The notes under the pieces are model-generated. The model did no database searches and was not told the origin of the DNA. It saw only the letters and a list, made by a program, of their open reading frames with translations. Positions 39,293 to 56,432 of a stretch of DNA of 64,000 bases are shown in pieces (within the stretch, counting starts at the first letter, position 1; each line of letters begins with the position of its first letter). The DNA is from an uncultured Bacteroidia bacterium (GTDB lineage Bacteria > Bacteroidota > Bacteroidia > Bacteroidales > UBA932): positions 224,990-288,989 of the forward strand of contig CACYGI010000002.1 in the NCBI GenBank assembly GCA_902773925.1, written 5' to 3'. The position numbers were made by a program, and so were the translations under genes.

Positions 39293-39319
39293 ATTCTGTT
39301 GGAGTCACTTCAAAACCCC
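39293..39319 (+). repeat. Left att-like direct repeat
   Basis: 27 bp, ATTCTGT then one variable base then GGAGTCACTTCAAAACCCC. The partner is at 56406-56432, with one mismatch (T here, A there). Its 3' end supplies the first arm of the terminator hairpin at 39312-39345. Confidence 0.8.
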
Positions 39320-39345
39320 TTTGAGAGCACCTCAGAGGGGTTTTT
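39312..39345. terminator. Terminator hairpin at left att
   Basis: CCCCTTTGAG pairs with CTCAGAGGGG (one T-G pair), with A-rich left and T-rich right flanks, so it can work from either side. The att repeat ends within its first arm. Confidence 0.75.
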
Positions 39346-39353
39346 CGTATAAA

Positions 39354-39404
39354 TTTGTCCCAGAATTGTCCCGATGAAAGTGCCTTGAGCAAATCCGGGA
39401 CAAA
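39354..39404. promoter_or_regulatory. Left arm-type integrase sites
   Basis: Two GTCCC cores (39357 and 39368, 11 bp apart) in TTTGTCCCAGAATTGTCCCG, plus an inverted CGGGACAAAAT at 39396-39406. The same 11-bp-spaced pair occurs at 56269-56290 near the integrase. The arrangement fits tyrosine-integrase arm sites, by inference. Confidence 0.55.
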
Positions 39405-39409
39405 ATAGA

Positions 39410-39443
39410 ATACCCCGTCAGGAAATACATCCCGGCGGGGTAT
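39410..39443 (-). terminator. Hairpin after the leftward structural-like cluster
   Basis: ATACCCCG pairs with CGGGGTAT; in the leftward direction the stem is followed by TCTATTTTG. It probably ends transcription of the four small element genes. Confidence 0.6.
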
Positions 39444-39464
39444 CGCATTTAGAACCGTGGTTCC

Positions 39465-40154
39465 CTACTCCGAGGACAGCTTAGCCTGGGCAAGCACATC
39501 TCCGGACTTCTCGCCGGTGGCGGTGTTCACGTAGAAGTACTTGAAGAAGACCTTGGGGCTGCCGGCGGAAGGAGCGCCGCACTTGCTGTCGTAGGCACTC
39601 TTGATGTCGATGGCCGTGGCCACGGGAGTGTACGGGTCAGCGAAGGCAGCAGCCTTGCTGTAGGCGCGGGTGATACCGTTGCCCTGAGGGTCGGAGGCCT
39701 GGATGACGAGTTTCAGGTTGGTCACATCGCTGGGGATGGTGGCCAGCTGGAAGGTCATCGCAGAGGCGGTGAGGGTGATGGTCGCGGAATCCGGAGCGAC
39801 GACACCGGCGAGGTTCGGCACAGCGGTCATGATATTGCCGCCGCAATAAACCACCCAGTAGTTTAGCCTCATAAAGAGGTTGGCACCGGAAATCTTGGCC
39901 TTGGTACCCAGCACGGACTTGCCCTGTGCGGTGTTGGCCGCGGCATTCCAGGCAAGGATCTGCTCGTTGGTGAGACCCTGCCAGGCCTGAGAGAGCTGCT
40001 TGAAGACAGCTTTTACGGAAGACTGGAACGAGGTTCGGGTAGAACCGCCGTATCCACGATTGCGGATGTACTTTCTGCCGCGAGTCTTGGCGGCGGTGAC
40101 ACCCTTTGCGGAGCCCGACATTTCGTCGAAGGCGATTGAAGGATTATACTTCAT
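39465..40154 (-). CDS. DUF6266-like paralog 1
   Basis: 229 aa, no signal peptide or membrane segment. N-terminal SIAFDEMSGSAKGV and basic GRKYIRNRGYG, then a helical module: QLSQAWQGLTNEQILAWNAA, and SGANLFMRLNYWV. The C-terminal half (from about 110) looks like a beta-sandwich (Fn3/Ig-like) domain rich in Thr, Ala and Val. The layout resembles DUF6266 of Bacteroidetes and phage-type proteins with the same W-x-L-x-x-x-Q-x-x-W pattern; the assignment is tentative. Paralogs are at 40943 and 42118. Confidence 0.65.
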   Translation of the reverse strand: MKYNPSIAFDEMSGSAKGVTAAKTRGRKYIRNRGYGGSTRTSFQSSVKAVFKQLSQAWQGLTNEQILAWNAAANTAQGKSVLGTKAKISGANLFMRLNYWVVYCGGNIMTAVPNLAGVVAPDSATITLTASAMTFQLATIPSDVTNLKLVIQASDPQGNGITRAYSKAAAFADPYTPVATAIDIKSAYDSKCGAPSAGSPKVFFKYFYVNTATGEKSGDVLAQAKLSSE

Positions 40155-40185
40155 GGCGCAAAATAATTAATGGTTGAACATAAGG

Positions 40186-40935
40186 TTATTCTGAATTGTT
40201 TTCTCCATCCCTCACGAGGAAGGCAAAGATAAATGGATCGTATCCGGTGCTATCGAAACCGCTCATTCTCTCCTGGCAGGTGAACACTCCGTTCTCGACA
40301 TGGGCCAACGAGTATCCGTTTACCGAAGGGTTGTATTGGTTGGAGCCTCCGAGGAAAGGAACATCCGCGTTCACATCCGTAGGGAAATCCCCCATCTGCG
40401 CCTCCCACGGCTGGTTCCGGTAAGAGTACGAACAGCTCGAGAACTGCATGTGCAGGAACACCCAGTGTTCAAAGATGACGCAGAAGGTATCGGAACTCCA
40501 ATATAGGTAACGAGTCTCCTGGGTCATATTGATGCGTGTTCTGGTTCCCTTTATGGGGCTCCCGGGCTGGTTGAGCATCGGATACAGGGCCTGGATGAAG
40601 ATGGTTATCTCGCCCTTATCATCGAAGTTGGTGAACTTCTCCAGACAAATGGTGTTCTTGTCCTTAATCCACGTTTTAATGGCCGTACCGCCGTCATTAT
40701 TCCAGGTATAGGAAGAATACACGTAACGGTCCTGGAACGTCAGTATGGCGCCCGCAACGGCACTCCTGTTGATGCTGAGGTCAGGGACATATATCTCAAG
40801 TGTATCCACCCCTTGATAAGCTGCATTCGTGGGATCGTACGTGAACTTGGCGTTGAGAACAACGTAGTTCTCCGCCTGGTAGTCCTTGAACTGAATGGAA
40901 CCTGCACCGAAGTTATTGCCTGTAGAATTGAACAT
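40186..40935 (-). CDS. Unrecognised 249-aa protein of the DUF6266-like cluster
   Basis: I do not recognise a family. The protein is rich in aromatic residues (Tyr, Phe, Trp) and Asn/Gly, is predicted to be mostly beta-strand, and lacks a signal peptide. It ends FIFAFLVRDGENNSE. It lies 7 bases downstream of paralog 2 and 31 bases upstream of paralog 1, so it is co-transcribed with them. Such composition fits a receptor-binding, fibre or surface protein, but this is only inference. Confidence 0.6.
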   Translation of the reverse strand: MFNSTGNNFGAGSIQFKDYQAENYVVLNAKFTYDPTNAAYQGVDTLEIYVPDLSINRSAVAGAILTFQDRYVYSSYTWNNDGGTAIKTWIKDKNTICLEKFTNFDDKGEITIFIQALYPMLNQPGSPIKGTRTRINMTQETRYLYWSSDTFCVIFEHWVFLHMQFSSCSYSYRNQPWEAQMGDFPTDVNADVPFLGGSNQYNPSVNGYSLAHVENGVFTCQERMSGFDSTGYDPFIFAFLVRDGENNSE

Positions 40936-40942
40936 ATCCGTA

Positions 40943-42004
40943 TTAGTAAAGGATGCCGGGGCCGAAGACCTCCGTAGGTTTCACATAGTAGCCGCCTCGA
41001 TGGGCAAAGGTGATAGAGGAGCCGTCCCAGCTGGAGTTGCGCAGCCAGATTATGTAGGACTGGGCGGCCAGGGCGCAGTTGCCGTCGCCCATACCTCGGG
41101 CAAGAGCCATGCTGGTGCCGACGCAGTCTGCCGGAAGTTCATCTTCGAGATAGGCCTCAGAAGAAGCGACGTTGCTATGGCCGAGGCAGACGGTATCGAA
41201 GGAGATGACCGGAGCACCGGTGGAGAAGTCCACGTCACACTCAGAAACGTGGCTGTCCGGCTTGATGTCATCCATCGTAATTTTGTTGCGCTTGACATAG
41301 CCCTCGGCTTCGGCCTCTTCGGATGTGATGCATATCTTGCTATCGAAAGCACTCGCTCCAACGAAGCCGGTTTCTGTGTTCAGCCAGTACAACTCAAGGA
41401 AGACTTTGTCGCCCACAGCGGGCGCAAATCCTACGACCTTCATATAGCGGCCACGTACATTCGCATCGCCCCAGTCATCCTCGATACCGGCAGACACAAT
41501 CACAGTCTTGCTCCAACCGCTGGAAACACCGGCGGAAAGGCCTGCAGACATCTTGATAACAAGACGAAACGGGTCGTTCTGGTGTACGATCCCCTTGATG
41601 ATAAGATCGCTCGGAGTGACCCAGATTTCGTCGTAAACGACAGCGGGGATATTACTGATGTGGGAAGGCGCATCCATGAGAATGGACTTGCCCGCAAGGA
41701 GACGATTGGAATTGATGCGGACAAACGCATTGTGGGCGGTCATCTCCGCTGCCTTGCCAAAGTAGGATATACCTTTGAGATGATTGGCCAAAACCTCCCA
41801 GGCTTGCATTTGGGAATCAGAGAGCTGCTTGTACTCCCGGGAGATTTTGGACAATTGATTTCTTGTGGCTGCCTGAGAAGGTGTGAACACCTTGCTCTGA
41901 TAAGCACGTACAGAGAGTACATTCCTGCCTTGCACAGTCCTCGCGGTGACATCTTTCGCCGTACCGGAGAAGTCATTGAAGGCTATTGAAGGCTTTGCTA
42001 TCAT
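40943..42004 (-). CDS. DUF6266-like paralog 2 with extended C-terminus
   Basis: 353 aa. N-terminus KPSIAFNDFSGTAKDVTA and GRNVLSVRAYQ, then KISREYKQLSDSQMQAWEVLA and HNAFVRINSNRLL, align with paralog 1. After the shared module come a first beta-rich domain (about 110-215) and a second unrelated region (about 215-353) with several Cys and Trp, ending PTEVFGPGILY. A clear promoter (42040-42072) precedes it. No enzymatic motif is visible. Confidence 0.65.
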   Translation of the reverse strand: MIAKPSIAFNDFSGTAKDVTARTVQGRNVLSVRAYQSKVFTPSQAATRNQLSKISREYKQLSDSQMQAWEVLANHLKGISYFGKAAEMTAHNAFVRINSNRLLAGKSILMDAPSHISNIPAVVYDEIWVTPSDLIIKGIVHQNDPFRLVIKMSAGLSAGVSSGWSKTVIVSAGIEDDWGDANVRGRYMKVVGFAPAVGDKVFLELYWLNTETGFVGASAFDSKICITSEEAEAEGYVKRNKITMDDIKPDSHVSECDVDFSTGAPVISFDTVCLGHSNVASSEAYLEDELPADCVGTSMALARGMGDGNCALAAQSYIIWLRNSSWDGSSITFAHRGGYYVKPTEVFGPGILY

Positions 42005-42039
42005 AATCTAATTATGCTTAGCAGCCTCTGATTCCAATG

Positions 42040-42072
42040 CAAATATAATACTTTATTTTGAATTATTCAAAA
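42040..42072 (-). promoter_or_regulatory. Promoter of DUF6266-like paralog 2 operon
   Basis: Leftward TTTTG (42068-42072) and TATATTTG (42040-42047) form a -33/-7 pair with a 20-bp spacer, 36 bases before the start codon. Confidence 0.65.
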
Positions 42073-42117
42073 TTAGAAAGTTATGATATTTCACATAAAG
42101 TTACACTTTAGGCAAAA

Positions 42118-42831
42118 CTACAGCGACATCAGGAAGGATTTCTTCTTGAATATGTTCCGGTAGCCGGTCTCAGAATCGAGCAATAGATACCGCATATGAA
42201 CCTGGTACTCCTGCAGGTCCAAGTCCCAGATGTCCTTATACCCGGGAACCAAGACTTCCACCATGCAGTTGTTGGAAGTACAGTTCTCCTGGGCGACAAA
42301 TGACCGCAGATAGCCTGGCCTCCTACCGGAACCGGGAGTAGTCAACTGGAGGCGAACAGCAAGCCGGTATCTCGAAGGATTCGGACACCGATCCAGTTGC
42401 ACCCTCAACTTGAGGGATAGAGTATCACCTTCAACAACCGAAGCGCTGTGATATGAACAGTATACTACCGGCAGCTCCTCGAATGCCCTGGGGACCGGTA
42501 GATGCTCATTGCCAAGCTGTGCGAATCCGTGGTATCCGGAAACGAACAAATTATGGCCGGTGATGTGGTGGTCATTCTTGAACGGTGGGCGATGACTCTG
42601 TACGGTCAAGGCCAGCATATTCCACTGCTCCTGGGTCAACGGATCGAGTGTACGCCAGGCCTGCAAAGCACGAAGATGGACCGACTGCGCTTCCATCTGA
42701 GACAGCGTCCCCGGGAACTCCGGATGCGCTCTCTTCTTCCAGAAACAAACACCATCCCGGTGGTAGAAAGTAACCTCTCCCACGGAAGACCAGCAGTCTG
42801 AAAAACCGATGTTGGATTTATATTTTGGCAT
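42118..42831 (-). CDS. DUF6266-like paralog 3
   Basis: 237 aa. N-terminal KSNIGFSDCWSSVGEVTFYHRDGVCFWKKRA, then the shared module HLRALQAWRTLDPLTQEQWNMLA and ITGHNLFVSGYHGF. The rest is beta-rich (SYHSASVVEGDTLSLKLRVQLDR; VHMRYLLLDSETGYRNIF). It has its own promoter at 43005-43035 and a structured 5' leader. The gap to paralog 2 (113 bp) holds the next promoter. Confidence 0.65.
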   Translation of the reverse strand: MPKYKSNIGFSDCWSSVGEVTFYHRDGVCFWKKRAHPEFPGTLSQMEAQSVHLRALQAWRTLDPLTQEQWNMLALTVQSHRPPFKNDHHITGHNLFVSGYHGFAQLGNEHLPVPRAFEELPVVYCSYHSASVVEGDTLSLKLRVQLDRCPNPSRYRLAVRLQLTTPGSGRRPGYLRSFVAQENCTSNNCMVEVLVPGYKDIWDLDLQEYQVHMRYLLLDSETGYRNIFKKKSFLMSL

Positions 42832-43035
42832 ATCACTTTATCTATAATGAGGTGCCCTGTCTGACCATCACGGCAAGACAGGGCGTTGGGGAATTGTACT
42901 ATGTAGTGCCTGGGTCAGAGGGACCTCGGGCGTTGAACTCTTGGACACATAGGTAGCTCAAAGGTACCTCGGTATATGTAACAACTATTGTTGTAAGTCC
43001 AACACAAAGATACACAATAATTTCAATATATCAAA
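42832..43035 (-). promoter_or_regulatory. Promoter and structured leader of paralog 3
   Basis: Leftward TTTG (43032-43035) and TATCTTTG (43005-43012) are separated by 19 bp. The ~165-base leader before the ATG contains ACAAC/GTTGT and a strong stem GCCCTGTCT/AGACAGGGC with a 13-base loop (about 42855-42885). The stem lacks a T-run, so it is not a simple terminator and may act on translation or RNA stability. Confidence 0.5.
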
Positions 43036-43048
43036 CTAAAGTAATACT

Positions 43049-44468
43049 TTAATAAAAAATTGCGGGGTCAAAGGGGGCTGTGCCCCCTTGATTGTGCCAG
43101 ATTTTTGTCCCATGTTGCGACGTTCGGGCGGGGTACGGCGGTCGAGGTTTCACCTGCTTTGAAGCGTATATCAACTTGATAGGGCTCGAACTTTTCTGGG
43201 CGGCTGGCGCGACGGCGTCAGCCGTGGCGACAGACGAACGGAAAAGTTGAGCAGGCAAGGCCGTAGGCCGCGGCAGGTGAGCGACTTGATGCGGCTGAAG
43301 CGGGGTACGACGGTCTCTCGCGAACAGGCACGATCCTACGAATAGAAGCACAACGTCTGGACGCTGATGCGGGAGAGTCGGGCCGCCGGCTGGGGCTTGA
43401 GCAACGTAGCGGAAGGCGGAGGGTTGGAGGCGTCAAGGCGGCGGAGACCTTGTGGCTCCGACGACTCGCCGGAAACCCGGAGACGAGAGCGGAGTTTGCT
43501 GAAGCACCAGACGAATAGCGAGCCCGACATAAACCAAGCCGTAGGCTTACCGCGGAGTGGAGGGACGGGACTCTTCTGACGGAGCCTGCGGAGGAAGAGG
43601 AGTCACGGCCTGGAACGACCCAGCACCGGAGGTGCGTAAGGCGGCAGGATGCTCGCGCCTTGATAACGCTCCCAGCGGGCCACTACCCCACGAATCTTGA
43701 TAACGGTCCTGCGGTGCGGCACTTTGCGCCCCCGAACACTTGCAGTCCTTCCTACCGAAGGTGGTAGCGGAGGCAGTGGTATCCGGAGCGTCAGCGAAGG
43801 ATACGACTGCTGTAGCGGGGCTGGCGTCTTGATGACGGTGATACGAAGGAGCGCAAAGTGCGGAGTGAGCGACGGAGGGGAGGGGTGGTCCCCTCCCTGA
43901 GCGAACTCCTCTCCTGCCGCCGCCTCGCCTGGGCGGGGAACTGGCACAACGGTCCTAAAAGCCTCTGCCGGAACAACTTAACATAATCCGGATTGTGTTA
44001 ACCCGCAGCAGGTAGGACGTTGAAGGCGGGCTTCTGCCCCTCGCAACTTGATGTCCTTGATGCGGTGAGATACCGCTCGCGCGAGGAGTTACACAATCCC
44101 GATGGGATTATGTTAATGTTGTGGATTTCAAGCACTTACGGTGGTTCGAAGGGATGTCGCAGCCCAGGCGATTATGGCCCCTGGGGGCTGTGGGGGATAA
44201 ACCAGCACGGTGAGCTGGCAGTTGTGGAGCAAGCGCAGCGAGCGGAACAACTGACTGCTGACCGTGACCGCTTTCCCTTTAAGTGCGAGGGGGCGAGTCT
44301 GCGTCAGCAGTCTCGCTGCGCGGGGGCCAATGGAGCGGAGGGCGTCAGCAAGTCTGTGGCAGACTTGCTCTGACACAGTCTTGCAGCGAAGGGTGGCAAT
44401 GAAGGTTGCCTTTCTGGGCGGCTTGTCCGTCCCAGAAGGGCAAGTACCGCTTTCCTTTATTATTCGCC
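43049..44468. ncRNA. 1.4-kb palindrome-rich non-coding region, candidate large structured RNA
   Basis: No credible gene; the open frames are short, overlapping and without recognisable domains. The stretch is more GC-rich than flanking element genes and packed with stems: AAGGGGG/CCCCCTT, CGGC-GTCA-GCCG, GGCC-GTA-GGCC, AAGCC-GTA-GGCTT, GCACC-GGA-GGTGC, GGGGAGGGG/CCCCTCCC, CAAGTCTG/CAGACTTG and others. Some are nested: TCACCTGC (43150) with GCAGGTGA (43273) encloses GCTCGAACTTTTC with GAAAAGTTGAGC. CTTGAT occurs eight times, always on the + strand. It lies between the RM helicase stop and paralog 3. A structured RNA is the favoured reading; a DNA-level replication or packaging region is an alternative. 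Confidence 0.4.
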
Positions 44469-47048
44469 TCAGACGATCTGGAAGTAGCCTTTCTCGAATG
44501 CGGCTGGATATAGGAATTTCGCTTCCCTATCGGCAAATTTGATGATGACGTATTTATCGTCCATCGCCATGATTTCGCCTTCGCCAAAACTCTTGTGGAT
44601 GACGGTATCGCCCACCTGTAGACGCTCCCAGGGCTCCATTTCCTCTCCTTCTGGTTCCACTATCGGCTCCGGTTCCGGTTCTTCTTCCTGAGGCTGTTCA
44701 ACCAGCTTGGAAGTGTCAATTACGGTGTCCCATCCGCCGATGAGCGTGCCGGTATGTTTGTCTATGCCGGTGTATTCAAGGCTGGAATCTTCGTAGCGCT
44801 TGAACTTGTAGACAGCATCGTTCATCAATTCGCTGTTGAAGACGCCCAGGCTGACCAGCAAGCTGAAATCCTTGAGGGTAAGGCCCGTGACCTTGCGGAA
44901 AAGTTCCGGTTCGAGTTGTTCTATGACATCCTTGAGGCAGTATTCCCGGTAATCAGTAAGGTACATGAATACAGGGATACGAGTAGCGAACTTGATAAGT
45001 TTCTCCTGTATCTCCTTTCGCTTGCTCTTGTACTCTTTCTCTTCTTCTGTGAGTTCCTTTTTCTGCTTCGGTGTGAGGTCATCACCCTTCTCTTTCTTGG
45101 TATTCTTGACGTGGTCGGATTTGTTGATGATGGTCTCAATGTCGGAATTCAGATTGCGGAAACCTTCGATGTTCATCAGGGCCTTCATAGCCTCCGGATT
45201 GTTCATCAGGCGCTGGAGGGTGGCATTGTCTACATTGACCAGGACGGCGCTTTCCCACCTGCGAGCCAACAAGGTCGCGGTGGTACCGCTCATAGCCATA
45301 TCCAGCACACCGGCTGCGTCGATTTCCTTCATGGAAGAACCATCGTAAGCAAGGATAGGCAAGAACTTGATGAACTCCTCCACCTTCTTCTCCGGGTTGG
45401 TCTCCTTGACATTGAGTTGGCAACTGTATTCCTCAACCTGGCGCAACGCCCGGTTGGGGGCGAAATCGAATACGTAGCATAGAGGCTTGAGGATTACTTC
45501 CTCACCCTCTTCATCCTTTGTGGTCCAGGGGGACTGAACGCGGAAAGCGGCCTGGAAATAGGTTTCCGGAGACGTAGTATTGCGCAGCATCATAATGCCG
45601 GTCCAGGGCTTTACGGTGACGCCCGTAGACAGCTTACCGCAAGACAGGGTGATGGTCTTGGTCTGCTGCGGTTCGCCCATCGCATCATAGACAGGATCTA
45701 CTGCCTTCGCGCCCATGCCTGGCATTGGCGGTTTCTCTGTTCCCAGTTTCAGCTCCGTGACGATATTCTCCATATAAGCGCCACGGATAAGGTCGAGCCA
45801 TTTCTGGACATACTCCTCGTGTAAGAAATAATCGCCTTCTGCCCGGAAGAACTCATTCAGGTCAAATTCATCAAACTCGCCCTGTGATGCAACCTCGCTT
45901 ATGCTATCAGGCATCTGGTATGTGAGCATAACCATCTTTGGGAGCTGGGCATAAGGGTTGTTGTCGCCCTTCCAGGCTTCCTTTGCCGCCTGCTCGTCAG
46001 AATAGGTCCAGTTGTATATCTGTTCCTCGATGAATTCTCCCGTAGAGATTGCTCGGAATGGAGTGCCTGAGAGATAAAGGTAGGCTCCGGTGCGCAGCGG
46101 CATCAAGCCTTCGTCGTACAACTCACGAGCCTCCAATTCACGAACATTGTCGGCATCCTCGGTGATAATCTCCCCAACTTCCTCTGCCCGCTTCAGGGCA
46201 GGGTCTTTTTTGTCGTAGAAGTTCTTGGCGTTCTTGCCCCAGGCTCCATAGTGATATTCATCCAGGACGATGCAGTCCCAGTTTACAGTCTGAATCCACT
46301 TGTTAGTAGCCTTAATACCGCCAGCATCATTCTTTCCAAGCACATCCTGGAATGAGGCAAAGCAGACAAATGGCTTGCGCTCATTTACGTAGTTGAATTC
46401 GCGGTCTTCCTGCTTCTGGCAAAACTGCCAGCCCTCGAAATCTTTATGGGTAAGCAGATCTTCTTCCCAGGCAGTCTTCACCGCCGGCTTGAAGGTCAAG
46501 ACCAGCACCTTCTTCCATCCCATCTTGAGAGCAAGTTGATAGGTGGTAAAGGTCTTGCCGAAGCGCATCTTGGCATTCCACAAGAAGTGTGGAATGAGGC
46601 CGCGGTTAGAGGGGTCTTTCTTGAATGAATCGAAGTATGACGTTGTTTTTGCTACAGCCCTCTCTTGCTCCGGACGCATAGGAAAAGAGTAGATGCGATC
46701 GACCATCGTCTCTTTACCTTCGACTGCAGCAATGATGGCCTTTTCGACGTTTTTCACGTCAGTAACGAACCATTCTCCTTCCGGATTACGGATATGATTC
46801 TTGCGAAGAATCTTGTGAATGAGATGGTCGTCAAAGGAGGTACCGTCTTTACGCATGGCGGGGCGCTTGAGAACAATGTGGTATGGGATATTACCAGTCA
46901 GGTTCTGTTCTTTCACGCGAGTTTCCACGTCGCGGGTGGTATAGCCCACCTTAAGCCATCCTGAATGAGCGGGCACACCTACGTGTTCGTAAGCGTATAT
47001 CATTGGGGTCTCGCTGACCCTATTGCGGAGTAGGTCTTGTGCTGCCAT
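44469..47048 (-). CDS. GIY-YIG nuclease / SF2 helicase fusion, restriction subunit
   Basis: About 859 aa. The N-terminus (about 15-115) is a GIY-YIG domain of the T5orf172 type: MIYAYEH, LKVGYT, catalytic Arg in DVETRVKEQ and Glu in PEGEWF. The SF2 helicase follows: Walker A MRFGKTFTTYQ, DEXH box CIVLDEYHYGAWG and a late motif FQAAFRVQSPW like type III Res subunits. The last ~50 residues (VGDTVIHKSFGEGEIMA) resemble the Tudor-like C-terminal domain of PcrA/UvrD. The ATG at 47048 is preferred over a TTG at 47057. It lies 33 bases after the methylase gene. The likely role is ATP-dependent cutting of unmodified DNA. Confidence 0.8.
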   Translation of the reverse strand: MAAQDLLRNRVSETPMIYAYEHVGVPAHSGWLKVGYTTRDVETRVKEQNLTGNIPYHIVLKRPAMRKDGTSFDDHLIHKILRKNHIRNPEGEWFVTDVKNVEKAIIAAVEGKETMVDRIYSFPMRPEQERAVAKTTSYFDSFKKDPSNRGLIPHFLWNAKMRFGKTFTTYQLALKMGWKKVLVLTFKPAVKTAWEEDLLTHKDFEGWQFCQKQEDREFNYVNERKPFVCFASFQDVLGKNDAGGIKATNKWIQTVNWDCIVLDEYHYGAWGKNAKNFYDKKDPALKRAEEVGEIITEDADNVRELEARELYDEGLMPLRTGAYLYLSGTPFRAISTGEFIEEQIYNWTYSDEQAAKEAWKGDNNPYAQLPKMVMLTYQMPDSISEVASQGEFDEFDLNEFFRAEGDYFLHEEYVQKWLDLIRGAYMENIVTELKLGTEKPPMPGMGAKAVDPVYDAMGEPQQTKTITLSCGKLSTGVTVKPWTGIMMLRNTTSPETYFQAAFRVQSPWTTKDEEGEEVILKPLCYVFDFAPNRALRQVEEYSCQLNVKETNPEKKVEEFIKFLPILAYDGSSMKEIDAAGVLDMAMSGTTATLLARRWESAVLVNVDNATLQRLMNNPEAMKALMNIEGFRNLNSDIETIINKSDHVKNTKKEKGDDLTPKQKKELTEEEKEYKSKRKEIQEKLIKFATRIPVFMYLTDYREYCLKDVIEQLEPELFRKVTGLTLKDFSLLVSLGVFNSELMNDAVYKFKRYEDSSLEYTGIDKHTGTLIGGWDTVIDTSKLVEQPQEEEPEPEPIVEPEGEEMEPWERLQVGDTVIHKSFGEGEIMAMDDKYVIIKFADREAKFLYPAAFEKGYFQIV

Positions 47049-47081
47049 TTTTAACAATCGTTCTGGACAAAGAAGAGATAC

Positions 47082-48590
47082 TTATTCCATCGGACGAATC
47101 ATAGATTCAATAAATGAAATCTCCTCACTCGTTAGTTTGTATTTCTCGTATAGCATTTCATCCGTCCACGGATGAGAGAAATCTTGTGTCGGGACAAATT
47201 GATAAACGCGCGCTGGAGCGTCTTGTGTGTTTTTCTTTAATAAAACACAGAATCTGAAGAAGCGTGTTTGGATGTAACTAATAACATTTTCGGCTTCTTT
47301 CTTTGTATCAAAGGGACCAATCACGACATATGTCTCGGTGCAGCAAGAATTCTTTTCTCCAATAAAAGGAGTATTAAGTATTTGGTGAGGAAAGTCCTCT
47401 CCGGCTCCATACGCTCTGGTAATGAAAACTTTATACTTGTCAACCCAGCCCACGTTCTGTGTGATTTCATTTCTACTTACATACCCCACAGACTTGTTGG
47501 CATATAGTTTAACAGCTCCATCAAAACTCTTGGGCTTTCCCGTAACAAATGTGCGGAATCCAAAAGGCTTCTGACTACTTACGTATGGAGCAAAACTCTT
47601 TTCATTGAGTTTCTGTACTTTACGAAGAATAGAAATCGCTTCGTTATACCGGATGAAGGTATCAGACCCCTTTTCCAATAAGGCTCGGGTAGAAACTGAT
47701 TTCGAATCGCCGCGGACTGTTGATACCTGGCATAAACCTTCGTTGTCCCTATCCCAAAGGAAATAACACACGCCACCTTTAATCTCAACTCCAGGGAAAC
47801 ACTCTGAAGATAGAGGATAATCAACGATAACCCGCAAATGTTTATCATGGAGCATCTCATCTCTAAAGTCATCCAATCCACGGCCTCCGGCGAACCAACG
47901 GGAAGGGACAATCATAGTCAAGTAGCGAGGCTTGAGTTTCTTGGCCTGCTGGATAAACTTGTGATAAAGAGGGATTGCTCCTCCTCTCTGCCTTTCCTCA
48001 GTATCTCCGCCGTCGCTCAGTTGATAAGGCGGATTTCCTATGATGACATCAAATTTCATATTACCGAAAAATTGCTTTGGATTGTCTGTGTGAATGAACA
48101 TATAAGCGTATTGCTCCGCTTCAGGGCCACGGTCATAGGCAGCCTGAGAAGCACCGCAATACTTGCATTTACCATTCTCCCATGTATGATTACGATTGGC
48201 ATACAGGACATTTCCGCTCTCATTATTGAATTGAGAAACGCTGTATTTCCCGTTAGCGTGTTTGCTGCAGTAGAGGGAGCGCCGCGATAAATAGGAAGTC
48301 AGTTCCGTGATGGCAAGGCCATAGACCTGAGTATGCAAGATGTGGTCGATGCGTTCCTGGCGGTCCGGAATCCGGCTTTCCAGGCCACGGTCCAGACGCT
48401 TGACAATTTCCCTTAGGAAAACACCGCTCTTGGAGACTGGGTCAAGAAATGTAGTGTTCGGGTCTCTGAACAAATCTTGCGGCAACAGATCCAGCACTTT
48501 GTTTGCCAACTCTGGCGGGGTGAACACCTCGTCGTTGCTCAAATTGGCGATGCAATTGAGAACGTCCGGATTGTAATTACTGTTCGCCAT
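47082..48590 (-). CDS. Eco57I-like adenine DNA methyltransferase
   Basis: 502 aa. Motif IV is DVIIGNPPYQLSDGG near residue 185, the signature of N6-adenine amino-methylases. A motif I-like LDPVSKSGVFLREIVKRL is near residue 48, with Ser-Lys in place of the usual Cys-Gly. A possible zinc site is formed by CSKH and CKYCG (about 110-145). The C-terminal half (about 290-500) probably holds the target-recognition domain. The start overlaps the small SAM-binding partner gene by 14 bases, so the two are translationally coupled. Confidence 0.85.
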   Translation of the reverse strand: MANSNYNPDVLNCIANLSNDEVFTPPELANKVLDLLPQDLFRDPNTTFLDPVSKSGVFLREIVKRLDRGLESRIPDRQERIDHILHTQVYGLAITELTSYLSRRSLYCSKHANGKYSVSQFNNESGNVLYANRNHTWENGKCKYCGASQAAYDRGPEAEQYAYMFIHTDNPKQFFGNMKFDVIIGNPPYQLSDGGDTEERQRGGAIPLYHKFIQQAKKLKPRYLTMIVPSRWFAGGRGLDDFRDEMLHDKHLRVIVDYPLSSECFPGVEIKGGVCYFLWDRDNEGLCQVSTVRGDSKSVSTRALLEKGSDTFIRYNEAISILRKVQKLNEKSFAPYVSSQKPFGFRTFVTGKPKSFDGAVKLYANKSVGYVSRNEITQNVGWVDKYKVFITRAYGAGEDFPHQILNTPFIGEKNSCCTETYVVIGPFDTKKEAENVISYIQTRFFRFCVLLKKNTQDAPARVYQFVPTQDFSHPWTDEMLYEKYKLTSEEISFIESMIRPME

Positions 48591-49215
48591 ATGTTTTTGC
48601 GTTTATTTTCAAAAAGTGAACGGGGGCATAGGTGAAGGCGGGGATGTCGGAGAAGAGTCCATCGCTTTCGTATTCACCAATCAGATATGAGAATTCGTAG
48701 TCGCGGCGATTGAATTTCCCATCACCCACCGGACTCCATTCACATATATGTATCCACTCACCGGAGCCATCGACTCTCTTGTAGGTGAGGGCGTCTCCCA
48801 GGATGATATTTTTAGAGAGGATGTAACGGGCTTCAATGCAGGTTTCCTTGCATTTGGATTTGAAGAGGTTGCGATACTGCTCCGTGAAGCAATCCAGCAA
48901 GCGCTGGCGGCAGGCCTCAGCATTATCAGGGAGCAATTCTATGCCGTAGATGCTGGAGATGGCCAGCACAGCATTTTCTTCGTATTGAAGTTGCGTGTAT
49001 TGCTTTGATCTGACTCGATTCTCGCAGATTGCGAGTTTGCGGCGGAGGATTTCAATAAGGAAATTGCCATCTCCGCAAGCGGGTTCGAGGAAACGGGAGT
49101 CAAGTCTCTCCGTCTCCGGTTTTACAAGGTCCAGCATGGCATTCACCTCGCGGGGGTTAGTAAACACCTCACCGTGAGCGGCCACCCTGTCCCTGGACTT
49201 GATCTGGGTGTCCAT
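48577..49215 (-). CDS. Small N6-MTase-like SAM-binding protein
   Basis: 212 aa. Clear motif I FLEPACGDGNFLIEILRRK near residue 40 and an acidic-loop-like SIYGIELLPDNAEACRQRLL near residue 90. No NPPY/DPPY motif IV is found, so the protein looks like a SAM-binding half without its own catalytic loop. It shares GEVFTNPREVNAMLDLV with the start of the next gene (DEVFTPPELANKVLDLL), so the pair may be an ancient duplication. Its ATG abuts a stem of the leader at 49218-49360. Confidence 0.8.
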   Translation of the reverse strand: MDTQIKSRDRVAAHGEVFTNPREVNAMLDLVKPETERLDSRFLEPACGDGNFLIEILRRKLAICENRVRSKQYTQLQYEENAVLAISSIYGIELLPDNAEACRQRLLDCFTEQYRNLFKSKCKETCIEARYILSKNIILGDALTYKRVDGSGEWIHICEWSPVGDGKFNRRDYEFSYLIGEYESDGLFSDIPAFTYAPVHFLKINAKTYGEQ

Positions 49216-49217
49216 TC

Positions 49218-49473
49218 TGCGCTTTCATGGGGCACTTGGTGTTTACTCGATTGACGGCTTCCAAGGGGCAAAAAAAGGCGTGGATCGTTTCCTATCCACA
49301 CCAGAGGCCCTGAGAAGCCGTGAAAATGAATAAGTCGTGTCCACGCCAAAGCGCAGACATTTACTGACTTATCCGGTCTTTCACTTTAGAAATTTCTCAG
49401 GTTTCTGGTAACCGAATAAATAGCAAATGCTATGTTAAAATATGTCTTGCAATTGTTTTGCAAGGCAAATATA
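49218..49473 (-). promoter_or_regulatory. Promoter and attenuator leader of the RM operon
   Basis: Leftward -7 TATATTTG at 49466-49473. The leader holds GGCGTGGA (49340-49347), GGTGTGGAT (49294-49302) and ATCCACGCC (49277-49285) followed by seven T (49270-49276). The second and third segments form a terminator (9 bp, one G-U). The first can pair perfectly with 8 bases of the third, giving an antiterminator. ACGGCTTC/GAAGCCGT encloses the terminator, and AAAGCGCA right before the methylase ATG can pair with TGCGCTTT in the leader ORF (49348-49355 with 49218-49225). Confidence 0.6.
49292..49360 (-). CDS. 22-codon leader ORF in the RM operon leader
   Basis: ATG at 49360, TAG at 49294-49292. The peptide starts MSALWRGHDLFIF and ends TASQGLWCG, with two Trp and one Cys near the ends. 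Its codons for WRG form the antiterminator arm, and those for WCG plus the stop form the first arm of the terminator. Ribosome position on this ORF would decide between the structures. No homolog search was possible; coding status is inferred from this arrangement. Confidence 0.45.
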   Translation of the reverse strand: MSALWRGHDLFIFTASQGLWCG

Positions 49474-49532
49474 CGAAAAAATGCGGAGAAAGCCGCACGA
49501 TGGTATAAGAGATTGAGTCTAAGTGAATAATA

Positions 49533-49557
49533 CAGCCCCGGTTTTGGTCCGGGGCTG
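49533..49557 (-). terminator. Hairpin after the DUF3987 gene
   Basis: CAGCCCCGG pairs perfectly with CCGGGGCTG around a 7-base loop, 25 bases after the DUF3987 stop. There is no T-run, so efficiency is uncertain. Confidence 0.55.
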
Positions 49558-49581
49558 CGTAGCATTAAGGTAAATCAAGTA

Positions 49582-51393
49582 TTATGATCTCTTTCGGTAG
49601 CGTCCATGCTCAACTTTTTCCAGCGGACCATCTTCCTCACAAAAGGCCCTAATCCACTTCTCGGCAGTGCTGGGAGGGACTCCGGTGCGCTCTGCGGCTT
49701 CCAGGTAATCCTGACGGTCGAACTCGTCTGGTAGGGCCGTGAAGAACAACTGGCGTTTCGCGGACTTGGCAACAGCGGCGGATCGGGAGCAGTCCGTTGA
49801 TGACAACTCGTCGAATATCTTCGCCATGTGAACAGCAAGCGTACGGCTGATGGTAAGCGCCGTATTGAAGTCCTCGTCAGTGCAGACCAACTCCGTCGGG
49901 AACGTGTTGGTATCCATCATCCGGACAGACGCCAAAACCATCGCTATGCGGTAGCAAATCAGGCCCAGACGGAAGACGGAACCCGCAATATCATCTGGAA
50001 ACACCCGGCTATAGTTGTCGAGCAGTTCCCTGAAATATGCGTCAAAAGCGTCGGTCTGTTCCTCGGTTACTGAAAAATAGATGTCCGGCTGCTGACACAG
50101 GGAATCGTAGAACACGAGGAACTCCTCCCCGAGGGCATCGAACTTCTTATCGACAGTCTCCTTGCCCTGGTTCTTGAGAACGCTGCGCCAGACCAGCTCG
50201 GTCTCCATCCGGTAAAACATAATCCTTGAAAACAACCCGTTCTCAGCACTCCCGACAAGTCTTACGACCTGCTTCGGTGTGCCGGTCAGAACCGCCGACA
50301 GCTTGGGACATTTCACCTCTACATCCTCGTCGTTGGCACGCCGGTGATACGACACGCCTTCGTGATGGAATGCGGCTCTGAAAGTCTCGCTGTAGTCCCC
50401 GAAATCGCTCTCGAAGGATGAAGACAGGCCATCGGCCTCGGTGGTGAATACTATGCCCCTCTCGTCATTCTCGTTCAGCAGCTGGACGAAGGCTGTTGCG
50501 CTGGTGTTACAGGGAATGTACAGCATGGTCTGGCGAGGCTTGACGGGCTTGTCGCCACGCTGCTTCCTGGGCGTATTCTCCCATTTCACCATGTCGGCAT
50601 CGTACTCTGCCTTCAAGGTGTCGTGCAGGTCCTTGAGCCGATTGTGGATGGGAGCGGCGATGCGGCGACACAGGTCTACTCGACCCTTGCCGGAGCCGGC
50701 ACGCGCAGAGAGGAAGAAGAAAAGGTTGGCGTAGACCATCTTCTCGTCGTAAGAGCCTTGCACATTATGGAGGCACCCGGAGATGACCGTAATGGCAGCA
50801 AGAATGAGCGTATCGGTTTCCTTCGGGTTGCGCCCGTAGGATGCGACCTTGCGCAGGAAGCCAGGCAGGTGCGGCGTGATGATGTCTGAAAATGTGGGCA
50901 ATGCAACTCGCTCCGTCGCTCCAGAATCTCCAATATCTCCATTATCGCCACCGACATTCCGTGGAGATATTGGCGGCTTTGGAGATTTTGGAGGTTTGTA
51001 GGAACGTGTGCGGATGTCGATGCCGGCGTCCCTCGCATACATGAAGAATGTGCGCATAGTAACACCGGATCCCTTAGACTTCAGGCAGTTGTTGTACTGC
51101 TTGTCCGTCTCGGCTTCTGTGTACTTGGGAAAGAATCTGCACAGCCGGTGATAGAGCGAGCGTCCTGCTTCTCCGAACTGGTCGGCGAAGGCGAAGCCGA
51201 ATCGCACCCAGTTCAGTCGATCCGCAGTAATATCCACATGGCGTTCCTCTATCTGCTGAAGAACAAACTCAACGTCGCTGGCAACGTCGCCGGGAATGAC
51301 CGGCGGCGCTGCGTTTGGTGCGACTTTGGGTGAGGCCAGCTTTTCGCTTGGCGTCTGCCAGGCCTCTGGATTGAAATCTGAAATATGGTTCAT
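49582..51393 (-). CDS. DUF3987 / PriCT-2 domain replication protein
   Basis: About 603 aa. The N-terminal part (about 35-130, RLNWVRFGFAFADQFGEAGRSLYHRLCRFFPKY) resembles PriCT-2 primase C-terminal domains; after a Pro/Lys-rich linker (about 130-150) comes a DUF3987 ATPase-like region with SARAGSGKGRVDL as Walker A-like loop and VFTTEADGLSS. A C-terminal winged-helix-like end follows. Such proteins accompany BT4734-type primases in Bacteroidetes mobile elements and probably help element replication. ATG at 51393 is used; a GTG directly before overlaps the upstream stop. Confidence 0.85.
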   Translation of the reverse strand: MNHISDFNPEAWQTPSEKLASPKVAPNAAPPVIPGDVASDVEFVLQQIEERHVDITADRLNWVRFGFAFADQFGEAGRSLYHRLCRFFPKYTEAETDKQYNNCLKSKGSGVTMRTFFMYARDAGIDIRTRSYKPPKSPKPPISPRNVGGDNGDIGDSGATERVALPTFSDIITPHLPGFLRKVASYGRNPKETDTLILAAITVISGCLHNVQGSYDEKMVYANLFFFLSARAGSGKGRVDLCRRIAAPIHNRLKDLHDTLKAEYDADMVKWENTPRKQRGDKPVKPRQTMLYIPCNTSATAFVQLLNENDERGIVFTTEADGLSSSFESDFGDYSETFRAAFHHEGVSYHRRANDEDVEVKCPKLSAVLTGTPKQVVRLVGSAENGLFSRIMFYRMETELVWRSVLKNQGKETVDKKFDALGEEFLVFYDSLCQQPDIYFSVTEEQTDAFDAYFRELLDNYSRVFPDDIAGSVFRLGLICYRIAMVLASVRMMDTNTFPTELVCTDEDFNTALTISRTLAVHMAKIFDELSSTDCSRSAAVAKSAKRQLFFTALPDEFDRQDYLEAAERTGVPPSTAEKWIRAFCEEDGPLEKVEHGRYRKRS

Positions 51394-51395
51394 CA

Positions 51396-52163
51396 CTACA
51401 AGTACTTGGGGTTAATAAATGCGTTCGGATCGTACGGCACGAAGCAGGCCCGGCATATGTCGCGGCCTGAGGGGTCAGCAACGATTCCGAAAGTCTTGAG
51501 ATAGTTGGATACCGCGTCAAAGTAGAAGCCGTGGTCGTGTCCTTGGTTGTTGACTATGGGAACAATCCACTTCAATCCGTGGCCACTGGGGCTCCTGAAG
51601 AGAAGCAAGGTTTCCAAGCGCGGCACGTCGAGCAGTTGCTGGAACGTGTCTTCAACTGAGGCAGAATCAGGCAGGTCGTCAATGTCGATTACGATGTAAC
51701 CGGATGGCGTAATGATTTGGTCTGCCTTGCGGTAGGTGAAAATCCCGGCAGGCGTCACGTAGTCGAAATGCGTACGCTTGTATGCCTTTGCTGCGTCCTC
51801 GTCGGTAATGGCGCGGAGTTCTTCGGTTGCGGCTTTCGCTGCATCGCTCGTCACAAGGGCGTACAGTTGCGCCAGGGTCATCTCCTCGCACGGAATCTTA
51901 TTGGTGATTGGCCGTTTGTAGTAGGAGAAACGCGGTGGCTCTGTAACGGCGACGGGCGGCTCCGTGGTGACACTTGGCTCGTTCTCGGATGGTTCCGGGG
52001 TTGATTCCGGGCCGAAGTCGGGCATATCCTCCTCCACGGGGACATGGAATATACTATCCTCCTCCCGCTCCCAGGGCTCTATATCATCCTGTATGAGCAT
52101 ACGCGTGCGATATTCCTCTGAGAAGTCGTAGTCGGCGACTGACATAGTACTTACCCTACTCAT
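51396..52163 (-). CDS. BT4734/VirE N-terminal-like primase-fold protein
   Basis: 255 aa. The first ~75 residues are acidic and Pro/Glu-rich. The domain from about 80 shows FSYYKRPITNKIP, YIVIDIDDLPDS (paired Asp metal site) and SPSGHGLKWIVPI, the hallmarks of archaeo-eukaryotic-primase-like BT4734 domains. The end, RDICRACFVPYDPNAFINP, is typical as well. It overlaps the HTH gene by 4 bases and touches the DUF3987 gene, so the three form a replication operon. Priming of element DNA is inferred. Confidence 0.87.
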   Translation of the reverse strand: MSRVSTMSVADYDFSEEYRTRMLIQDDIEPWEREEDSIFHVPVEEDMPDFGPESTPEPSENEPSVTTEPPVAVTEPPRFSYYKRPITNKIPCEEMTLAQLYALVTSDAAKAATEELRAITDEDAAKAYKRTHFDYVTPAGIFTYRKADQIITPSGYIVIDIDDLPDSASVEDTFQQLLDVPRLETLLLFRSPSGHGLKWIVPIVNNQGHDHGFYFDAVSNYLKTFGIVADPSGRDICRACFVPYDPNAFINPKYL

Positions 52164-52444
52164 TGTTTACCCTCCTCAATGGCTTTTACCTCGCGCTCGA
52201 GGTAGTATATGGACCTGCCTATCTTGATCGGATGGATTTTCCCTGCCTGCTCCCAGCGCGTAAGCGTCATGGGGGTCTTGCCAAGGCGTTTCGCCGTGGC
52301 CGTACGGGAAACTTTCACATCCGCATCCGACTCTTGCTTCTCAGCAAGGAGTTCGGAGACTACATTCCGGATGGCTGTCTCCAGGTCCGGAACGGTGGCG
52401 ATGAGCAATGTGCGCTCGTCATTAGCTTTAAAAAGACTTGTCAT
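52160..52444 (-). CDS. Small helix-turn-helix DNA-binding protein
   Basis: 94 aa. The C-terminal half (SRTATAKRLGKTPMTLTRWEQAGKIHP..GRSIYYLEREVKAIEEG) is an excisionase/HTH_17-type winged-helix reader. The N-terminal ~40 residues are helical. The ATG at 52444 is chosen over a TTG nine bases upstream. It leads the primase operon. Proteins of this type act as excisionases or regulators; which one cannot be told. Confidence 0.82.
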   Translation of the reverse strand: MTSLFKANDERTLLIATVPDLETAIRNVVSELLAEKQESDADVKVSRTATAKRLGKTPMTLTRWEQAGKIHPIKIGRSIYYLEREVKAIEEGKQ

Positions 52445-52509
52445 TTTTGTCAATAATTAAAAGTTAACAACAACAGCGCTGCACGGAAGTGCGTTTATGT
52501 GGTCGCCAT

Positions 52510-52560
52510 AAAAAAGCGCTGTCCGAAAGCTCGGCGCGACCATCGCCTTTGCTTTCGGAC
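52510..52560 (-). terminator. Terminator of the int/729-aa operon
   Basis: Leftward GTCCGAAAGC...GCTTTCGGAC, a perfect 10-bp stem with a 20-base loop, then AGCGC and six T. It lies in the 197-bp gap before the HTH gene. Confidence 0.75.
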
Positions 52561-52641
52561 TGCAATTATATACAAAAAATGTATTGATTTACAGGTGAGT
52601 ACAGCGGTAATTTGCGGCTGTACACTCTGTGCTACACTGCG

Positions 52642-54831
52642 CTACTCGGGGCTACTCGGAGGAGATTTGAAGTGCTTCTCAAGGGCAGTTTTATATGTCG
52701 CTACGACTGACGAATCGACAGTTCTTGCGCCATTGTAATAGGAGTTGTATGTACTACGGCTGGCGAACTTTCCGAACAATTCTTCCGCTACGGTATGGGT
52801 CAGTTTTCCGGTATATCCCAGCTGCCTTGCTGCCAACAACAGGCAGATGGCATTGGTGGGGACATCTCGGTCAATATGCTCGTTTATATACTTGATTACA
52901 TCCGACTCCCGCCCAGCAAGGAGAATGTGTGGTACGGGCTCCCCAGCGGCGGGGCGATTATCCTTCTTTCTCTCGGCATCCAGCTGTTTAAGATAAGCCT
53001 CGGCTTCTTCCCCTGAGAGGATTTGGGCCGCAGAGAAAACCTTAGACGGATCGTTCCGGATGGCATTATCTATTGCATCCTTCGTAATAAAGGTATCAGT
53101 TAGGACCTCGGGGTCGAAGACGGGGACTGAGGAATCCCATTCATCAGCATCTCTCTCGCCCAGGTCGTTCAGCTTGTCATCAATGTCGTAATTGCCCGTA
53201 TCGCTCTTATATTTCAGCAGATTCTCATCAAGAAGTCTGGGCAGATATTCGATGTTAAAGCGTTGAAATAAGGAATAATTGACCAGAGAACTCCTTTTTT
53301 CGTCGCATGCCGCCCATAACTCTGCCGCAAGGATAACATTCCCTAAGCAGTATCGTGTAGTTTCAATCCATGAAGCGGCCTCATGATATGCTTCCGAGTT
53401 GAGGCTGTGAGTTAACTTCATAAATTCTACGTAGAAAGGAAGGCCTTGCTCTACCAGCGTACGAACCTTGTCTTTATACTGAGGGGTTTCGCCATCTTCC
53501 TCGAATGCATCCGAGTTTATTGTGGCCTCTATCAAGCCGTCATGGACCAGTTCGGTCACTTTGTCATAAAACGCATCTATATTGGTGTCCATATCAAAAT
53601 AGATGTCGCGTTCCTGGCCTGCGCCAAACTTGCCTTCCATACGATCTCTTTCGGCGAAATAGGCCTCCAGAGGGTCATCATAAATATTGTAATAAACCTC
53701 GACTTCGTAGCGGTGATTGTATAGAATGTTGGCCTTGAACCCTGAAACAACGGTTACTGCCTTCTCTATTATGAAATTCGCATACGTGAGGGCTATTCTG
53801 TTCAAGACATCTCGTTTCAACGAAGTGTGTTTCTTCTGCACCGACACCTTGATGGACTGCTGACACCATGTGTTGGCATCATCAATTGCATCCTTGAAGT
53901 GTTCATACCAGTGGTCGGTGAAAGCGAAAATATCACCAATCTTGTCATGGGTAAGGATTTCACAAGACTCCAGGAAATGAGCAAAGCAGTTGTCAACGAA
54001 TGTGAACATTTCCTCTACCGAAGACCGATCAATCGTACTGTTCTCGAGGTTGACAGCCTTCAAGAGTAAAGTATATGCCTTGTTACTGACTTGGTCGTCT
54101 TTGTCGCAGTAGTCGTATACTATCTTAAATAAGTCTCTACTTTCTGATTTCGCAGGCACAGGCGTGGGAGTAGGGACAGACCTTTCATAACCGGAAGGAT
54201 ACAGCTCAAGCCGTTTCTCCTCCAGGGCAATTAAAGCGTCTATTTTGTCGTCATATTCAGGTCCCCAGTCTTGCTTCTCGCTTATACTCAAGAGGTCCGT
54301 CACCTGGAGGTCAGCCTTCTTGGTCTGGAGGTATACGATCCGTTTTCGAATGTCCTCTATTTTCGCCACCTCCTCCCGGATAGCGTCGATGTCAAATTCG
54401 TTGGAAAACTGGACCAAGTTGTCTGGCACGGTCCAAGCATTTCTATATTGAAGTGTACCCCTGCTCAGTATATCGTTTTCAAGAAGATTGACGATGTAGC
54501 CATACTTGTAACGCTCCACGCTGAGGACGTCCAGCAGTACCGGCTGGAGAAGGTCGCTGTCCCAGGCGTATTCGCCCTCAAGAGGTGTGTATGATTCTCC
54601 CTCTTCATAATAGTCCAACGGCTTGCCCTTAACCGCGTTATCATAACGGACGTTAGTACTATAGCACAGATGCTGCTTGAAGTACTTGCGTGTCTGCACC
54701 TTGCTGGTACGGCGTTTCGCCAACTCGGGTATTATCTCAGCGACAATTCTCGCGAGTTCTTCTTCCTGTTCAATGCTCAGGCGAAATTTGGACGGGATGT
54801 TGTAATTCTCAAGGTTGTCTTGTACTTTCAT
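52642..54831 (-). CDS. Unrecognised 729-aa protein coupled to the integrase
   Basis: No family recognised. The protein is acidic, without signal peptide or membrane helices, and predicted largely alpha-helical. A Pro/Thr linker (PTPTPVPAKS, about 237-246) separates an N-terminal part with a coiled-coil-like stretch (about 150-180) from a long helical middle. The last ~85 residues (NAICLLLAARQLGYTGKLTHTVAEELFGKFASRSTYNSYY) look like a separate small helical domain. The start overlaps the integrase stop by one base (TAATG), so the two are translated together. A role in element maintenance, host takeover or defence is possible but unproven. Confidence 0.8.
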   Translation of the reverse strand: MKVQDNLENYNIPSKFRLSIEQEEELARIVAEIIPELAKRRTSKVQTRKYFKQHLCYSTNVRYDNAVKGKPLDYYEEGESYTPLEGEYAWDSDLLQPVLLDVLSVERYKYGYIVNLLENDILSRGTLQYRNAWTVPDNLVQFSNEFDIDAIREEVAKIEDIRKRIVYLQTKKADLQVTDLLSISEKQDWGPEYDDKIDALIALEEKRLELYPSGYERSVPTPTPVPAKSESRDLFKIVYDYCDKDDQVSNKAYTLLLKAVNLENSTIDRSSVEEMFTFVDNCFAHFLESCEILTHDKIGDIFAFTDHWYEHFKDAIDDANTWCQQSIKVSVQKKHTSLKRDVLNRIALTYANFIIEKAVTVVSGFKANILYNHRYEVEVYYNIYDDPLEAYFAERDRMEGKFGAGQERDIYFDMDTNIDAFYDKVTELVHDGLIEATINSDAFEEDGETPQYKDKVRTLVEQGLPFYVEFMKLTHSLNSEAYHEAASWIETTRYCLGNVILAAELWAACDEKRSSLVNYSLFQRFNIEYLPRLLDENLLKYKSDTGNYDIDDKLNDLGERDADEWDSSVPVFDPEVLTDTFITKDAIDNAIRNDPSKVFSAAQILSGEEAEAYLKQLDAERKKDNRPAAGEPVPHILLAGRESDVIKYINEHIDRDVPTNAICLLLAARQLGYTGKLTHTVAEELFGKFASRSTYNSYYNGARTVDSSVVATYKTALEKHFKSPPSSPE

Positions 54832-56219: not shown

Positions 56220-56244
56220 ATTCCCCAATTTTTATAGTACACAA

Positions 56245-56290
56245 CAAAGATACAAAATTTATCTGAAATTTGTCCCGAAATTGTCCCGAT
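56245..56290 (-). promoter_or_regulatory. Integrase promoter and right arm-type sites
   Basis: Leftward -7 TATCTTTG at 56245-56252, 26 bases before the integrase ATG. Upstream at 56269-56290 lies a pair of GTCCC cores 11 bp apart, matching the left-end pair at 39354-39375 with two differences. The -33 region falls in or beside this pair. Confidence 0.55.
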
Positions 56291-56405
56291 AAATTGGCGA
56301 TGAGCGTTATTTATTTGTTTGCGAATGTTGGGGAAATCTTTGTAAGTAGTTGATAATCATATAACATTAAGCAAAAACGAGATAACACCCGTAAACAAAA
56401 TGTGG

Positions 56406-56432
56406 ATTCTGTAGGAGTCACTTCAAAACCCC
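56406..56432 (+). repeat. Right att-like direct repeat
   Basis: 27-bp partner of the repeat at 39293, one mismatch. Again it runs into a terminator hairpin, but with different loop and second arm, so each junction has its own hairpin. Confidence 0.8.

Follow-up and report, generated by a model that had tools for sequence, protein, structure and literature searches.

Within the 64,000-nt window (the whole stretch of DNA analysed here), a gene-free segment of about 1.4 kb, hereafter STRUCT, holds a large conserved structure that contains a pair of inverted recombination sites for Xer, the system of chromosome dimer resolution. Comparison with relatives and with known systems makes it fairly likely that STRUCT is a giant folded single-stranded DNA module whose core is a Xer attachment site of the CTXphi type. 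The pair of Xer sites (43976–44118) is its most informative feature and was absent from an earlier sequence-only reading of the same DNA, which had proposed a large structured RNA. The proposal holds for a large, conserved and strand-polar structure, given the covariation and the better folding of the + strand; its RNA nature is unsupported, considering the Xer core, the GNA/GNNA loops, the low wobble share and the lack of any Rfam match.

43090–44457, + strand: STRUCT, the conserved folded stretch, with GNA/GNNA loops on this strand, defined by homologs, consensus structure and shuffle z-scores

Comparison with relatives puts the best-conserved portion at about 43100–44290, with homology reaching 44457. 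The longest ORF inside 43050–44468 does not exceed 117 aa and G+C is 57–62%, in agreement with the description of the region as gene-free and GC-rich in the sequence-only reading. STRUCT is present in a single copy in its own 1.7-Mb genome. Against dinucleotide shuffles, the fold of 43500–44300 gives z −6.3 for + strand DNA, −5.2 for − strand DNA and −5.4 for + strand RNA, the + strand being the one that folds better. A decayed protein gene, the outcome that would have undone the structural proposal, is ruled out: homologs have helices in common but no common reading frame, with many indels between relatives. Terminal inverted repeats of STRUCT were dropped as a feature since homologs do not keep them. 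Just outside, at 43064–43089 of the window, lies a 26-nt palindrome (GGGGTCAAAGGGGGCTGTGCCCCCTT) seen again near contig ends of two other genomes (G027 and G024), which suggests that it is a multi-copy repeat in its own right.

The consensus structure was built on 21 aligned stretches and comprises 206 pairs. Paired cells amount to 93.5%, compared with 83.2% in shuffles and 36–42% when partners are slid, and the covariation score is 0.234, compared with 0.096 and 0.04–0.06, respectively. Covariation among homologs is strong: 92 of the 206 pairs change on both sides (53.6 in shuffles, 31–35 in slid controls), and these changes are too numerous to be explained by the slid control being somewhat flattering, as it is for a structure derived from the same alignment. 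That the conserved structure is real is, to us, practically certain. Several helices connect segments 100–300 nt apart, and those most relevant here are the following.

43536–43548, + strand: GNA triloop hairpin AAGCC-GTA-GGCTT (helices 16–17), appearing in relatives as ACGCC-GCA-GGCGT and ACGGC-GTA-GCCGT
43623–43635, + strand: GNA triloop hairpin GCACC-GGA-GGTGC (helix 18), appearing in relatives as GCAGC-GGA-GCTGC and GAGC-GAA-GCG
43640–43921, + strand: long-range helix 19, GGCGGCAGGA (43640–43649) with TCCTGCCGCC (43912–43921), 99.5% paired and with both-side changes at 4 pairs
43719–43861, + strand: long-range helix 21, GCACTTTGCGC (43719–43729) with GCGCAAAGTGC (43851–43861), 98.4% paired
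43925–44171, + strand: helix TCGCCTGGGCGGGGA with TCGCAGCCCAGGCGA around the Xer hairpin (helices 24–25)

Both triloop hairpins had already been singled out from the letters, along with the stem pairs TCACCTGC/GCAGGTGA, GCTCGAACTTTTC/GAAAAGTTGAGC, GACTCTTCT/AGAGGAGTC and CACTTTGCGC/GCGCAAAGTG; every stem named then is present, where it had been placed or at most 1–2 bases away.

Sites A and B are the best-conserved sequence of all STRUCT, and they lie in inverted orientation 82 nt apart.

43976–44003, − strand: Xer site A, dif-like, GGTTAACACAA-TCCGGA-TTATGTTAAGT (11+6+11), with zero mismatches to TTANNACAA-N6-TTATGTTAA; on the + strand it reads ACTTAACATAA-TCCGGA-TTGTGTTAACC
44086–44118, + strand: Xer site B, GAGTTACACAA-TCCCGATGGGA-TTATGTTAATG (11+11+11), in the opposite orientation to site A
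44100–44104, + strand: the 5-nt bulge CGATG that remains in site B on annealing to site A, from the minimum-energy DNA fold of 43970–44124

A chance match was rejected: allowing up to 3 mismatches, the window should contain 0.20 matches by chance, and the actual site has 0 mismatches. We are highly confident that the Xer site is real. The centres measure 6 nt in A and 11 nt in B, so that annealing of the two gives a dif-like XerC/XerD duplex with a 5-nt bulge; the DNA fold of 43970–44124 reaches z −6.1. Helices 27–28, which join A to B, are 100% and 93% paired across the alignment and show compensatory changes in the centre. On the XerD side the centre triplets covary as TCC/GGA, TCT/AGA, TCG/CGA and CGA/TCG, and on the XerC side as GGA/TCC, GAA/TTC, AGA/TCT, AAA/TTT and GTA/TAC. 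The pair was found in 17 of 20 fetched family loci (counting L127, which has the XerD half only) and, among 82 further loci that include some cut by contig ends, in 35. In most relatives the centre of B is 5 nt longer than that of A, with CGATG, CGATA, TTATG or AGCGC as the bulge, and the L020 hairpin has no bulge. At L127 (position 11612, genome G325) the hairpin consists of two XerD arms only, ACTTAACATAA-tcctgatggga-TTATGTTAATG, which looks like the outcome of a deletion of the apical XerC half at the bulge.

Complementarity of this kind would serve no purpose in double-stranded recombination sites, but it does in a folded strand. An ordinary double-stranded Xer site in a palindrome-rich region, serving multimer resolution in the manner of cer or pdif with no single-stranded fold, would suit site A, whose 11+6+11 layout is standard when taken alone, but we regard this explanation as very unlikely. 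The 11-nt centre of site B is outside the range of normal double-stranded sites, the complementarity is maintained by compensatory changes together with a fixed 5-nt excess, and about 1.2 kb of additional covarying helices would be left unexplained.

Besides site A, only one perfect match to TTANNACAA-N6-TTATGTTAA exists in the 1.7-Mb genome, on a contig other than that of the window (G000:C9:14224). It reads TTTTAACACAA-TTTATA-TTATGTTAAAT, also written TTNACACAA-TTTATA-TTATGTTAA, and lies beside a gene that we take, read by eye, to be rarA. The same sequence is found in most genomes of the genus, mostly once per genome, and was for that reason taken as the chromosomal dif. The Xer arms of STRUCT are identical to the arms of this putative dif, and the genome encodes an XerD-like recombinase (320 bits, slightly below the family cut-off of 329.6). 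The site A bases that would meet the TTT of dif are GGA, GAA, AGA or AAA (purine-purine-A), pairable by Watson-Crick or G.T pairs in nearly all variants. Exceptions are GTA in L204 and the L212/L270 subtype, and because of them dif as the target is a guess: we can advance the chromosomal dif only tentatively, as a partner that is possible and somewhat doubtful. No STRUCT copy integrated at dif was found, nor any dif-STRUCT junction near the dif sites fetched. Two genomes of the same genus (G037 and G027) carry dif and STRUCT, or a STRUCT fragment, on one contig, but about 17 kb apart and without a hybrid site, and were set aside as coincidence.

STRUCT belongs to an element of 17.1 kb (about 39301–56432) bounded by direct repeats.

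39301–39319, no strand assigned: left 19-bp direct repeat GGAGTCACTTCAAAACCCC, element end, paired with the right repeat
39465–40154, 40186–40935 and 40943–42004, − strand: three more C0/C1 cluster genes, seen as ORFs, family not recognised
42118–42831, − strand: C0a, 237 aa, family not recognised, accompanying STRUCT as its gene partner in almost all relatives
44469–49215, − strand: variable cargo, here restriction-modification genes (T5orf172/ResIII, Eco57I methylase; family matches)
49582–52163, − strand: BT4734-like N-terminal protein and PriCT_2/DUF3987 primase-helicase (family matches)
54831–56228, − strand: the element's own integrase, a tyrosine recombinase (Phage_int_SAM_5; profile match)
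56414–56432, no strand assigned: right 19-bp direct repeat GGAGTCACTTCAAAACCCC, element end

From right to left the order is integrase, a 729-aa unknown protein, BT4734-like protein, primase-helicase, restriction-modification genes, STRUCT and the four genes of the C0/C1 clusters. Given that the element has its own tyrosine recombinase and is located between other direct repeats, the Xer site is not what placed such elements. Among the genes of the window element, none was recognised as coding for a relaxase, a rolling-circle Rep or a coat protein. The neighbouring genes once described as DUF6266-like match no Pfam model, DUF6266 included, and C0a has no family in either Pfam or PHROG. Its AlphaFold model (pLDDT 84) presents three helices followed by a beta-sandwich, for which a structure search returned generic beta-sandwich matches only, none of them informative. 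Just inside both element ends there are AATTGTCCCGAT repeats (39351–39375 and 56266–56290), and a run of GTCCAC/GTGGAC repeats is seen at the far edge of STRUCT in genome G348 (L134 8390–8470); both kinds of repeat are possibly integrase arm sites.

Homologs of STRUCT were detected by blast in 62 of 399 genomes of the bacterial family, the named relatives being Bacteroidales of ruminant gut, horse gut and other sources, including Candidatus Cryptobacteroides. Across the fetched loci the constant unit is STRUCT plus C0a and the surroundings are interchangeable. In one relative (G037, L086 251–7771) the cargo block holds a cytosine methylase, an AAA/HTH protein, a LlaJI-like endonuclease, a Piwi-domain Argonaute and Vsr; in G348, and apparently in G392, chromosomal genes directly adjoin STRUCT. 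The element in these two genomes seems to consist of integrase, a small HTH protein, C0a and STRUCT only, in about 4.5 kb; in a search for the empty site of the G348 minimal element, the flanks were found only separately. We read STRUCT as a module of integrative elements whose integrases and cargo can be swapped.

At L125 (8796–14301), STRUCT and four C0/C1 genes lie in a 5.5-kb element that has the 19-bp repeat of the window element at its two ends and no recognisable integrase, and whose right end adjoins the apparent 3′ end of a tRNA gene; it is possibly a non-autonomous satellite of such elements. Longer C0 operons occur in L019, L020, L024, L123, L131 and L142 (clusters C4 and C12), with a lipoprotein with a C-terminal membrane segment, which by eye we take to be spanin-like, and a small protein with two membrane segments, presumably holin-like on the same basis, hinting at a lysis or virion role. 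A blastn search of STRUCT against plasmids and phages gave no match, and neither did the exact Xer-site patterns in viral contigs. Searching with C0a led to two IMG/VR contigs (L203 and L204) that carry C0a and the Xer pair, and whose other genes were not identified as viral. A GCGAAGC-rich piece of about 200 nt, homologous to the 3′ end of some STRUCT copies, stands alone in L048, L087, L049 and L050: at L087 (685–888, G027) it is a lone 3′ piece, and at L048 (9896–10877, G004) it lies beside a C0-like gene, flanked on either side by chromosomal genes.

The cargo to the right of STRUCT varies (restriction-modification, Piwi-domain Argonaute, chromosomal genes) and the C0 side is constant, as would be the case if STRUCT were an integron-like point, that is, a folded single-stranded attC-like site exchanging cargo beside a conserved C0-STRUCT module. 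The lone C0-like gene with its 3′ STRUCT piece in G004 also fits, but no array of repeated sites is seen and STRUCT is single copy in its genome, and we find this idea highly improbable.

The nature of the folded molecule was addressed by comparison with RNA. Searched against Rfam covariance models at gathering score, STRUCT matched no family, GOLLD and ROOL included, in line with the earlier failure to recognise either of them by eye, and a relaxed search returned weak microRNA matches only. Among 97 distinct triloop hairpins of the + strand 32 are of the GNA type, with 8 on the − strand and 7 in shuffles. Tetraloops of STRUCT are GNRA in 10 cases and GNYA in 14, i.e., GNNA without GNRA preference, whereas RNase P RNA of the same and related genomes has 15 GNRA, no GNYA and no GNA loops. 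In DNA, mini-hairpins with a GNA or GNNA loop closed by a G-C stem are known for exceptional stability (PMC4686876). Wobble pairs make up 3.8% of standard pairs in STRUCT and 10–13% in RNase P run through the same pipeline, and covarying pairs without a wobble cell are 77% and 39–46%, respectively, the RNA control being a single family with lower G+C (54 vs 61%).

Altogether, the Xer core, the loop type and the low wobble favour DNA over RNA, and STRUCT probably acts as single-stranded DNA. The competing interpretation, a large ornate non-coding RNA of a mobile element working with C0a, for which the Xer-like hairpin would be one stem or an embedded Xer site, is unlikely in our judgement. Strong covariation and strand polarity would be expected of it, STRUCT is similar to GOLLD and ROOL in its size and mobile context, and G.T/U predominates at four of its pairs, with a tandem among them in helix 2, a trait common in RNA. 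It is at odds with the loops and wobble just described and with the empty Rfam search, and the stem conserved best of all is an exact Xer site in agreement with the host dif, something that an RNA would gain nothing by retaining. Furthermore, the position of STRUCT relative to the C0 genes differs between relatives, upstream in some of them and downstream in others, which also speaks against such an RNA and means that STRUCT is not simply a C0 leader.

Under the single-stranded DNA reading, the + strand of the element would become single-stranded during replication or transfer, and some 1.2–1.4 kb of it would adopt a set fold with GNA/GNNA mini-hairpins as its caps. Sites A and B, inverted and each half-functional, would anneal where a forked hairpin has its base, restoring a single dif-like XerC/XerD duplex whose centre carries a 5-nt bulge. 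With this duplex, host XerC might exchange one strand with a dif-like partner, either the chromosomal dif or another folded copy, for integration or monomer resolution. The remaining fold probably protects or presents the strand, possibly with C0a as a partner. Chances seem evenly poised that STRUCT deserves to be called an 'ornate' ssDNA, meaning a kilobase-sized, multi-helix, conserved DNA fold with an Xer core that is the functional form of the elements' transferred strand.

A conserved fold of kilobase size is usually taken for RNA as a matter of course. If the single-stranded DNA reading is true, selection can act on a large defined fold of DNA as well, and loop type, wobble share and embedded recombination sites become tests that separate DNA from RNA folds. 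CTXphi-style capture of host Xer would extend from filamentous phages to integrative elements of gut Bacteroidales, elements that carry restriction and Argonaute genes, and these would have an unsuspected single-stranded stage.

The closest known system is that of the cholera-toxin phage CTXphi, whose attP1 and attP2 are inverted, lie about 90 bp apart and have centres of 12 and 7 nt (or 6 nt); only the folded + strand is a substrate, XerC exchanges one strand and compatibility is set by Watson-Crick or wobble pairing with dif (PMC3089051). STRUCT likewise has two inverted Xer sites about 80–90 nt apart with unequal centres differing by about 5 nt, which anneal on one strand into one bulged dif-like site with arms matching the host dif, and by this analogy we think it rather likely that it works like CTXphi attP(+). 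The CTXphi hairpin is, however, about 150 nt long, whereas here the hairpin is set within a conserved fold of about 1.4 kb, and host, gene content and element type differ. Since no integration at dif was found when tested and the element has its own integrase, we do not file it in the CTXphi group. Bacteroidales microvirus proviruses are also Bacteroidales elements that use host dif/Xer, but they integrate at dif-like sites and carry capsid and Rep genes, and a folded double site is not part of their description (PMC3091885). With integron attC, STRUCT would share a site remade by single-strand folding as the substrate of a tyrosine recombinase, although attC is cut by IntI and has no dif arms. 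Integron attC sites are also far smaller than STRUCT. GOLLD and ROOL RNAs (PMC12286853) are alike in being conserved kilobase-scale folds in mobile DNA, from which STRUCT differs in its lack of an Rfam match, DNA-type loops, low wobble and Xer core; an 'ornate' ssDNA, if that is what STRUCT is, would be their DNA counterpart in a widespread family of small integrative elements.
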